Positions 20,484 to 23,920 of a stretch of DNA of 32,236 nucleotides are shown piece after piece (within the stretch, counting starts at the first letter, position 1; the number at the start of each line of letters is the position of its first letter). Origin of the DNA: Natronohydrobacter sp. (GTDB lineage Bacteria; Pseudomonadota; Alphaproteobacteria; Rhodobacterales; Rhodobacteraceae). The stretch spans positions 1-32,236 of the forward strand of contig SKGU01000128.1 of the NCBI GenBank assembly GCA_007117255.1. The letters run 5' to 3'. The notes under the pieces were generated by a model. The model saw nothing but the letters and a program-made list of their open reading frames with translations. It had not been told where the DNA came from and did no database searches. The position numbers and the translations under genes were made by a program.

Positions 20484-20885
20484 ATGATCATCGGGATTGG
20501 GACTGATCTGGCAAATATCGACCGGATTGCCGGAACGCTTGCACGCTTCGGTGATCGCTTCCGTCAGCGCGTCTTTACAGAGGAAGAGCGCGCCCGCGCA
20601 TCACGGCGCGACGACGACCCGGCCACTTATGCCAAGCGCTGGGCCGCAAAAGAGGCATGTTCCAAAGCCTTGGGAACAGGGCTTGCGATGGGCATTTCAT
20701 GGCGTGATATGTGGGTGACGAACCTCAAAGGGGGGCAGCCCGTGATGCACGTGTCTGGCTGGGCGGCAGAGCGTCTGGCGGCGCTGACCCCCGAAGGCCA
20801 TGAGGCCGTGATCCATGTCAGTCTGACTGACGATCGCCCTTGGGCACAGGCATTCGTTGTGATCGAGGCGCGTAAATGCGTCTGA
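20484..20885 (+). CDS. acpS: Holo-[acyl-carrier-protein] synthase
   Basis: [51 protein letters not shown]. Confidence 0.96.
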
Positions 20886-21097
20886 ACTGTTGCGCCAAGT
20901 TTCGAATCACGCGTGGCACGAACGACAAGATTTTTTCCAAACAGGGGTCAATACCGGGAAGTTGACGATACTGTTCATGTTTTGCTGGTCACGCTTTCAG
21001 CATTCACAGGAATCTCGCGCTGTGAGCAGAAAATTTCTTGCGAAATGACCCTGAGTGTTTTCATGGTGTTGCTGGGGAACATTTGAATGAGTGACGC

Positions 21098-21265
21098 ATG
21101 TGGTCTTTCTTGAATTCTTTCTGGTCGCGTGGTGACGGGACAACAACCAACGTTTCTTCGGTGCCTGAAATCGACGCATCGACCGGATTACTAGCGATGG
21201 CTGCGCTCGGTGCGGCTGTATTGTTTGCTTGGGAACGCCGTCGGCGTTTGGCCAAAAAAGCCTGA
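21098..21265 (+). CDS. VPEID-CTERM sorting-domain small protein (55 aa), putative exosortase E substrate
   Basis: My translation: MWSFLNSFWSRGDGTTTNVSSVPEIDASTGLLAMAALGAAVLFAWERRRRLAKKA*. VPEID (21161-21175) + hydrophobic TM + basic ERRRRLAKK tail is the canonical PEP-CTERM-like tripartite signal. Missing from the ORF track, which lists nothing under 60 aa. In-frame TGA at 21092-21094. Cognate exosortase gene adjacent. Confidence 0.9.
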   Translation: MWSFLNSFWSRGDGTTTNVSSVPEIDASTGLLAMAALGAAVLFAWERRRRLAKKA

Positions 21266-21303
21266 AATCATCATCGGCATAGCTGATTGATTGCTGATTG
21301 AAT

Positions 21304-21333
21304 GAACCGCCTCATGTGGACTTGAGGCGGTTC
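21304..21333. terminator. Bidirectional terminator between the VPEID-CTERM gene and the exosortase gene
   Basis: GAACCGCCTCA-TGTGGACT-TGAGGCGGTTC, 11-bp perfect stem, followed by TTCTTT on (+); lies between the convergent stops. Confidence 0.8.
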
Positions 21334-21350
21334 TTCTTTATGGGAAACAA

Positions 21351-22985
21351 TCAGATCAGGCCCAGATCTCCCAGTGCAATGGCTGATCCGGCGACAACAA
21401 TATTTGCCGCAATATGGGCCTGGACGGCATCGCCTACCCGGTTCCTGCGCAAGTAGACATATGCGAAGACAAGCCCGGCCAGCGTCGCTTCGACATAGCG
21501 CCCGTGCAGGATTGCAAACGCACCGGTCGAGATTGCAATGGCCAACCCCCTGCGTTGCCAGTCGTTGCCGTTGAAACGCGCCAGAAGATACCCGCGGAAG
21601 AAAAACTCTTCGATCAACGGCACCAGCAGGATCGTTCCGAATAAACGCAGAATCACCCAGATAATTGCACCTGCCAATGACATGCCAGCCAGCATGGTAC
21701 TCAATTCCGCGCCGCTGCCCGATGATCCGCCCTGCATGGCGATCCAGATCAGCCCGACACCTGCACCAAGTGCCCATGACAGACCGTCGAAATGCCATGG
21801 CAGCGCGCGAATAAGCCGCCAGAACGGCAAGAGTGCTGCCAGCATGATTGCCACACGCAACGGATAACCAAGCGCGGCAGGCGCGAAAAAGGCCGAGGCA
21901 ATCAGTCCAGACAGCATAAACGCGATGAATGGCAGGATCTGTGCGGCAATCATGTCTTGCGTGATCGGGGTAGAGGGCGCGCGTGCCTCTGCCCGATGAA
22001 GCGAGGCGGAGCGATGCACGATGATCAGGATACCCAGTGCCAGCAAGGTGAAGAAAATCCAGCCCGCGTAGCTGTGAAATCCGTCCACAGCCAGTCGTGG
22101 GGACACATGCGCGCCCAGCAACACAAGTGTAGCAATCCGCACGATATTCAGCACCCAGCTTGCCAGCAATGCCAGCGGCAGAACGATCAGCCAGAAGCGG
22201 GCATGCCGAATGGTTGCATGAAACAGCAGCGCATATAGTGCCACGAATCCGCCCACTAGAACGAAACCTTCTACACCAGAGCATTGCGCCGCAATATGAA
22301 CGGCGAAATCGTCGACACCCAGGATGAAAGTGTCGGGATCGGCGAAGGCCCCTGTGCCAAGAATGCGAAGCAGAACATAGACCAGCGCAAAGGTTAGAAA
22401 GGTAAGCGCCTCAATGTTCCACAGCGGCTGCATGGCGGCGGCCATTTCCGGCATGAAGGTCACGAAAACCAGAACCGCGCCGCCCAGCCAGCCAAGGCTG
22501 CGCAACAGCCAGCCCCAGTCAGATATTGGCGCAATCCAGCGTAGTGCGGCAGGTACGATGATCAGGCCGCCTGTGATCCAGATCGGCACGGCGCGCGCAA
22601 ACTGCTCCGGCCCGGCATCCTGCACAAGAAAAATGGCCGGGATCAGAAGGATAGCGAAGCCTGCAAATGCAAATACTCCGGCGATGTGGCTTGTGCGTGT
22701 TGTTTGTGCGGCACGCTGGGAGAATTCGGCGAAAACCGCAGGTCTTGCCAGAATCAGGACCGCGATGCCCGTGGCCAGTGCCATACCCCGCCCCAGTGCC
22801 GAGCGCAGGCCGCGGCACAGCTCATATGAACCGGTCGAGCCGCAATCGATATCAACAAAGAACTGATATATGACCGCCAGTGCAACAAGTTGCACCAACA
22901 AGATCAAGGCGCGAAACCGACCGCTATGGGCCTGCACCCGACCTGCCTCATGTCTCAGTTCGTTTCTATGATCACTGAAGGTCAT
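21351..22985 (-). CDS. xrtE: Exosortase E / CPBP-family protease fusion (VPEID-CTERM system)
   Basis: 544 aa polytopic protein. Exosortase triad-like AAQCSGVEGF (Cys codon 22281-22283), LNIVRIATLVLLG, DGFHSYAGWIFF; CPBP protease motifs VPLIEEFFFRGYLLARF (EEFFFRG 21591-21611), FAILHGRYVEATLAG, AHIAAN. Confidence 0.9.
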   Translation of the reverse strand: MTFSDHRNELRHEAGRVQAHSGRFRALILLVQLVALAVIYQFFVDIDCGSTGSYELCRGLRSALGRGMALATGIAVLILARPAVFAEFSQRAAQTTRTSHIAGVFAFAGFAILLIPAIFLVQDAGPEQFARAVPIWITGGLIIVPAALRWIAPISDWGWLLRSLGWLGGAVLVFVTFMPEMAAAMQPLWNIEALTFLTFALVYVLLRILGTGAFADPDTFILGVDDFAVHIAAQCSGVEGFVLVGGFVALYALLFHATIRHARFWLIVLPLALLASWVLNIVRIATLVLLGAHVSPRLAVDGFHSYAGWIFFTLLALGILIIVHRSASLHRAEARAPSTPITQDMIAAQILPFIAFMLSGLIASAFFAPAALGYPLRVAIMLAALLPFWRLIRALPWHFDGLSWALGAGVGLIWIAMQGGSSGSGAELSTMLAGMSLAGAIIWVILRLFGTILLVPLIEEFFFRGYLLARFNGNDWQRRGLAIAISTGAFAILHGRYVEATLAGLVFAYVYLRRNRVGDAVQAHIAANIVVAGSAIALGDLGLI

Positions 22986-23117: not shown

Positions 23118-23831
23118 TCAATCCAGCGTGGCGATCAGGCGGTTTCGGGCTTCGGGCAAGGCGCGCCCATGTGCTTCGGCCAGCCATTGATGCAGGAAAT
23201 GGCCACTCAAGCGCAGCGCTTCGCGCATGGCATTTGCGTCCATCTGAGCGCCGGGGTCGATCAGTGCAGCGGGCAGAGGCAGCAGACGCGACGCATACTC
23301 GCCCGCACCGTCATGTGTGACCGCCCGTCCGGTCCGGGGTGAAACATAGGCCAGCCCTGCGCGCGCGCCAGTTACTGCGCATTGCTGCAAATCAAGCCCG
23401 AAACCCGTCGCTTCCAGCAGTTGCAGCTCCCATATGGCATATATGCGCAACCAACCGGGCCGGGCGAGGGCATCGAGCAATTCCAGTGTTTCACTGTAAA
23501 GGCCAGGATAGGGCTGACGCTCTGGCAGGGCAAAGCGGCACAGCGCGCATATTGAACTGAGCGCGGCCAAGGCCAGGCGGTCGCCAAGAATCAGCCCTGC
23601 GCGTGCCCGTGTCAATTCGACTGTGAAACTGCCCAACTGGTCTTCCAGCCGTGCGCGCCAGGTCAGGTCCAGCTGCCCGCCCGGTTGCATTGTCGCCGCC
23701 ATCTTGCGCGAGCCGCCGCCGCGCACCACTCCGGCATGTCGTCCGTGCAGTGCCGAAAATACCTCGATGATCGCGCTGCTCTCTCCATGCGCGCGAGCGG
23801 CCAGCAATATTCCTTCGTCACGCCAATCCAT
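23118..23831 (-). CDS. recO: DNA repair protein RecO
   Basis: MDWRDEGILLAARAHGESSAIIEVFSALHGRHAGVVRGGGSRKMAATMQPGGQLDLTWRARLEDQLG. Start reassigned from 23867. Confidence 0.93.
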   Translation of the reverse strand: MDWRDEGILLAARAHGESSAIIEVFSALHGRHAGVVRGGGSRKMAATMQPGGQLDLTWRARLEDQLGSFTVELTRARAGLILGDRLALAALSSICALCRFALPERQPYPGLYSETLELLDALARPGWLRIYAIWELQLLEATGFGLDLQQCAVTGARAGLAYVSPRTGRAVTHDGAGEYASRLLPLPAALIDPGAQMDANAMREALRLSGHFLHQWLAEAHGRALPEARNRLIATLD

Positions 23832-23920
23832 GTTGCAAGGCTTGCCGCGAACGCGCTGTTGCGGCAAGGGGTTTCCTGTGCACCCGCAGCTTGTCGCGTC
23901 AATCGCAAGAAGGAAATGAG

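Follow-up and report, generated by a model that had tools for sequence, protein, structure and literature searches.

Exosortases and archaeosortases leave their substrates on the cell surface and may be transpeptidases (PMC11980579). In the PEP-CTERM/XrtA (EpsH) system, the exosortase is paired with proteins that end in a motif, a transmembrane (TM) helix and a basic tail. Species with this system often have 20 or more such targets, and these proteins always bear a signal peptide (PMC3237569). Sorting enzymes are also known from the CPBP family of proteases, where MrtX acts on the tripartite C-terminal MYXO-CTERM tag, the motif of which needs an invariant Cys. A CPBP protease has been demonstrated as a sorting enzyme in Myxococcus and works in E. 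coli, while MrtJ, which consists of a CPBP protease only, is a lone sorting enzyme that adjoins a single JDVT-CTERM target and occurs sporadically (PMC11980579). Exosortase E (XrtE; TIGR04162), an exosortase-CPBP fusion, and the VPEID-CTERM proteins (TIGR04161), encoded adjacent to it and ending in a tripartite C-terminus, are likewise families that already have names. The original prediction assigned the locus described here to these families, and rightly so. It also held that the processed product has no assigned function, which stands for the literature searched, where the term VPEID was not found.

The window, a stretch of 32,236 nucleotides from Natronohydrobacter sp. (contig SKGU01000128.1), carries both genes. 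What is new is their anatomy, namely a strict pairing of enzyme and substrate, a substrate that is nearly signal only, a missing signal peptide and invariant active sites. The substrate gene is a 55-codon open reading frame (ORF) at 21098..21265 on the plus strand, with exactly the translation first given for it, and its product matches TIGR04161 with 53.6 bits (cut-off 33; E = 1.7e-14). It had been called unlisted, and it is indeed missing from the supplied ORF track, but RefSeq labels some of its relatives ‘VPEID-CTERM sorting domain-containing protein’; the VPEID genes of other relatives stand in public annotation as ‘hypothetical protein’. The sorting domain (21161..21247, plus strand), located by the TIGR04161 match to the genome, has the tripartite form that was expected of it, with the VPEID motif, a single TM helix (G30-W45) and an Arg-rich tail. 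In our alignment of this domain (A1), P, E and G are invariant, and a Trp and a Glu at the helix end and two Arg residues are nearly so. A genome-wide scan found the 55-aa ORF to be the sole credible VPEID-CTERM match in the whole assembly, which is a 71%-complete genome in 389 contigs. The same mini-gene occurs at the same place in four congeners. Across its C-terminal 30 codons, the window differs from these congeners with a dN of 0.05-0.10 and, where computable, a dS above 1. These codons are under purifying selection, which, together with the E value of the VPEID-CTERM match, rules out a chance ORF.

N-terminal to the sorting domain are only 21 residues (MWSFLNSFWSRGDGTTTNVSS; 21098..21160, plus strand), a predicted exported peptide with an aromatic start followed by a Gly/Ser/Thr linker. 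Its aromatic, Gly-rich character is common to the congeners; the ectodomain sequence itself is poorly conserved even inside the genus. The predicted exported part, counted from a signal-peptide cut to the VPE motif, spans these 21 residues in the window and ~8-46 residues across Rhodobacterales, where the cut was placed by a simple rule (not SignalP) that did not call the signal peptides evident in G124 and G293. Most clade-A proteins have 20-46 such residues, often rich in Trp and Gly; those of clade B have ~8-20, and those of G379, a genome of a different family, 5-8. By this count, the predicted substrate consists almost entirely of its sorting signal. Following the mini-gene is a terminator-like hairpin (21304..21333, plus strand) with an 11-bp stem and a T-rich tail (-23 kcal/mol, z = -5.3). 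Folding of three congeners gave hairpins of divergent sequence at the equivalent position (z -3.0 to -5.0), and the alignment shows one there in the fourth. On the 5′ side, the genus conserves short blocks within window positions 20930-21046 (near TTTTTC..GTCAAT, TGTTCA and AAAATTTCTTGCGAAA) but not their surroundings. The AAAATTTCTTGCGAAA block showed no genome-wide enrichment. A regulon marked by the upstream block AAAATGCTTGCGAAA was considered and rejected, its 15 matches besides the locus in four genomes being not clearly more than those of a reversed-pattern control.

The window protein begins MWSFLNSFW, with an in-frame TGA one codon 5′ of the ATG, and its 21 N-terminal residues contain no hydrophobic segment (maximum KD over 11 residues of -0.08, against ~1.4-2.9 in signal-peptide-bearing relatives). 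By our rule-based test, it lacks the N-terminal Sec signal peptide of classical exosortase substrates, and in this the substrates of the window and its genus differ from most of their TIGR04161 relatives. The signal-less state is common to all five carriers in the genus, and a search of all upstream frames in these five genomes, the window's included, found no conserved upstream or out-of-frame signal peptide. That five genomes share the state, with upstream stops, argues against an error. The protein of G140 is also signal-less; its gene is preceded by an AGGAGGT site and, three codons upstream, by a stop in frame, and the accompanying xrtE is intact. The VPEID gene of G123 is signal-less too, and lies beside an xrtE interrupted by an internal TAA (L078 / G123:C76), so this locus may be decaying. 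In the XrtE tree, from which G123 was left out, the window's five-member clade has a support of 100/100, and two changes are needed to account for the signal-less state. The Shine-Dalgarno sequence at the start codon in the window is weaker than those in the congeners. With its apparent loss of the signal peptide, the window substrate is an atypical form of VPEID-CTERM, and the original prediction, which did not mention the absence, is amended to this extent.

The gene xrtE (21351..22985, minus strand) is convergent with the mini-gene and encodes the proposed 544-aa fusion of exosortase E to a CPBP/Rce1-like glutamic protease. TIGR04162 matches it with 492.8 bits (cut-off 150) over model positions 5-516 of 516, so that enzyme and substrate both score far above their family cut-offs, and Pfam also resolves both halves above cut-off. 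The exosortase half (22014..22721, minus strand; PF09721, Exosortase_EpsH) contains C235, R283 and H304, which correspond to the catalytic Cys-Arg-His residues of exosortases and are invariant in 36/36 aligned XrtE homologues; G123 was excluded from this alignment owing to its internal stop. The CPBP/Rce1-like half (21396..21659, minus strand; PF02517, E 4e-16) carries the EExxxR, His and HxxxN motifs (E459, E460, R464, H494, H524 and N528), which do not vary among the 35 homologues that extend over this half. Two further cysteines near the N-terminus are conserved, C48 in 35/36 and C57 in 36/36 homologues. No solved structure was matched to XrtE by sequence. With both proteolytic centres intact and a single substrate, the enzyme may act on this substrate in two steps.

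Compared with the described systems, the pair shares with PEP-CTERM/XrtA a motif, TM helix and basic tail matched to an exosortase, but its single target lacks a signal peptide and its enzyme carries a fused CPBP half. With MrtJ it has in common the adjacency to a single target and the sporadic occurrence; XrtE, however, also possesses an exosortase half, and the MrtJ model covers only its CPBP part (32.6 bits, cut-off 75). MYXO-CTERM offers a further parallel in the use of a CPBP-family enzyme on a tripartite tag, whereas the VPEID protein of the window contains no Cys at all.

The two genes are flanked by acpS (20484..20885, plus strand; PF01648) and recO (23118..23867, minus strand; PF02565 and PF11967), the latter forming the same flank in the congeners. 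The pair fills the acpS-recO gap as a unit in the window and its congeners, and in G320 and G325, both without the module, acpS directly abuts recO with the flanking order of the window. From this layout, the pair appears to be a mobile or losable two-gene unit. In G296 (L153:2968-5002), the gap is occupied instead by an XRE-like regulator and a SulP-like transporter, as read from the ORFs. The neighbours of xrtE vary from clade to clade, and across the carriers only xrtE and the VPEID gene are common.

That the neighbouring gene encodes the cognate enzyme is supported by co-occurrence. Among 296 Rhodobacterales genomes, the curated models find xrtE in 32, VPEID-CTERM in 32 and both in 31, and a more sensitive profile raises the co-occurrence to 32/32 (Fisher p ~1e-39 or below, which is only indicative, the genomes being related and hence not independent). 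G276, the one xrtE genome in which the curated model missed VPEID-CTERM, has a VPEID gene that was found by a motif scan and by our own profile. Within the window's genus, five of the 37 species have both genes and the other 32 have neither. The concern voiced with the original prediction, that the ORF might not be conserved in relatives with xrtE, is answered by 37/37 examined xrtE carriers with a VPEID-CTERM gene, usually an adjacent one. Our profile, built from 30 sequences, gives exactly one strong match in each Rhodobacterales carrier (E 3e-14 or better, the next-best E being above 0.004), and additional VPEID-CTERM substrates in these genomes were rejected as none was credible; the pairing is that of one enzyme with one mini-substrate. 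The window genome and all clade-A carriers have no exosortase other than XrtE, and seven clade-B genomes have a second one. Outside Rhodobacterales, the system was found in one further genome of the class sample. In G379 (L157), xrtE is accompanied by three tiny substrates. An exception to the pairing is G180 (L099), in which a 99%-complete genome with a VPEID gene and a thioester adhesin holds zero exosortases, leaving the substrate an orphan. A dedicated module of one enzyme and one mini-substrate, with the substrate apparently signal-less, is the best-supported addition made by this analysis.

We lean towards reading the pair as a self-contained two-gene module for dedicated sorting, wherein an N-out mini-protein would be cut at VPEI/D to yield a short surface peptide, attached or released. 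The family matches, the co-occurrence, the one substrate, the sole exosortase, the invariant sites, the presence as a unit in the acpS-recO gap and the precedents all count for this reading. Counted against it are the exosortase-free VPEID gene of G180, the weaker Shine-Dalgarno sequence of the window, an N-out topology without a signal peptide, which would be unusual among exosortase substrates, and the lack of experiments on any XrtE in the literature searched. The 55-aa protein would enter the inner membrane without a cleavable signal peptide, with the 21 N-terminal residues on the outside and the Arg-rich tail on the inside, a topology suggested by the charge distribution. XrtE would recognise the VPEID motif at the outer face, and its exosortase half (Cys/Arg/His) would cut at VPEI/D. 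The N-terminal peptide might then be attached to a putative envelope acceptor, either glycan or lipid, or be released, while the CPBP half probably acts on the helix that remains or at another site in the same substrate. The outcome would be a short surface peptide rich in aromatic residues, Gly, Ser and Thr.

By analogy with the precedents, surface attachment of this peptide is favoured, and its main rival is release, in which XrtE would free the N-terminal peptide as a diffusible signal or an antimicrobial-like peptide without anchoring it. Such a role would suit ectodomains that are tiny throughout, with lengths of ~5-20 aa in G379 and clade B and of 20-46 aa in clade A, where most are Trp-rich. 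It would also suit an enzyme with one substrate, the arrangement that a pair devoted to peptide maturation should show, and the CPBP proteins include bacteriocin-processing members, as the family name records (PMC11980579). However, the pair has no conserved neighbour of the receptor, sensor kinase or immunity type, and the ectodomain sequence varies even within the genus. We judge release without anchoring to be unlikely.

A second alternative arises from clade B, where the genes are codirectional and the VPEID gene is preceded by one for a repeat protein of up to ~1850 aa (SdrD_B, Big_9, cadherin-like) with a C-terminal Pfam thioester domain. The gene at L090:9316-12537 and nine similar ones (in G042, G060, G075, G083, G085, G113, G180, G216 and G265) adjoin the VPEID gene. 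Across 14 aligned thioester proteins, C53 (Y-C motif), Q119 (QxA(I)W motif) and Q181 (QP motif) are invariant, and most of the proteins end D-C-x-C. Thioester adhesins have similar Cys and Gln motifs (PMC4450167), and the clade-B proteins are predicted to be covalent adhesins of Gram-negative bacteria. The processed VPEID peptide could serve to accept or anchor a large surface adhesin or an exopolysaccharide, with XrtE a part of the attachment system. The thioester protein is indeed encoded beside the VPEID gene in 10/10 clade-B genomes (G180 counted), and plasmid-borne xrtE often lies amid polysaccharide genes, as in Leisingera, Alloyangia, Rhodovulum and Limimaricola. On a plasmid of Alloyangia pacifica (L184), xrtE and the VPLPA-CTERM exosortase gene xrtD are ~8 kb apart or less within one polysaccharide locus. 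Yet the thioester protein occurs in 0/28 other carriers (p 2e-9 for the contrast with clade B). No SdrD_B/thioester protein adjoins the pair in the window, and none was found in G000 or the four congeners; because it is absent from 28/28 other carriers, it cannot explain the module of the window. Moreover, three g4 genomes have a thioester protein without xrtE or VPEID, and the flanks of the window's pair showed no polysaccharide genes. A thioester adhesin as the general partner of XrtE was rejected, being restricted to clade B, and the broader accessory role is somewhat less likely still than release.

It is improbable that the 55-aa protein is instead a membrane microprotein that binds XrtE as an uncut pseudosubstrate. 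Such a regulator would fit a substrate barely larger than its sorting signal and a signal peptide lost in the window's lineage, but both proteolytic centres are invariant and no other XrtE substrate on which it could act was found. Least probable, and already largely refuted, is a truncated or decaying gene whose signal peptide was lost via assembly error or pseudogenisation, for the weak Shine-Dalgarno sequence of the window and the interrupted xrtE of G123 are outweighed by four congeners with the same architecture, purifying selection and hairpins, by the ribosome-binding site and upstream stop that G140 has independently, and by intact xrtE genes in G140 and the window.

Beyond the dedicated sorting module, we tentatively raise a wider proposal, to which we would give something short of an even chance. 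Rather than a general sorter, XrtE may be an enzyme that uses two protease activities to mature a peptide from one mini-substrate; several lineages would have dropped the Sec signal peptide, the C-terminal helix alone would drive N-out insertion, and the outcome would be a short surface or released peptide. The chemistry of exosortases, whether hydrolysis or transfer and to which acceptor, is a question stated in the literature that this module could address. It pairs one enzyme with one substrate, and its predicted product of ~25 residues is of a size at which the mature peptide could be analysed directly by mass spectrometry, something not easily done with the large PEP-CTERM proteins. The functioning of the CPBP sorting enzyme of Myxococcus in E. 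coli (PMC11980579) gives a ready assay for cleavage by XrtE, and the signal-less form tests whether a sorting signal alone drives N-out insertion and processing.
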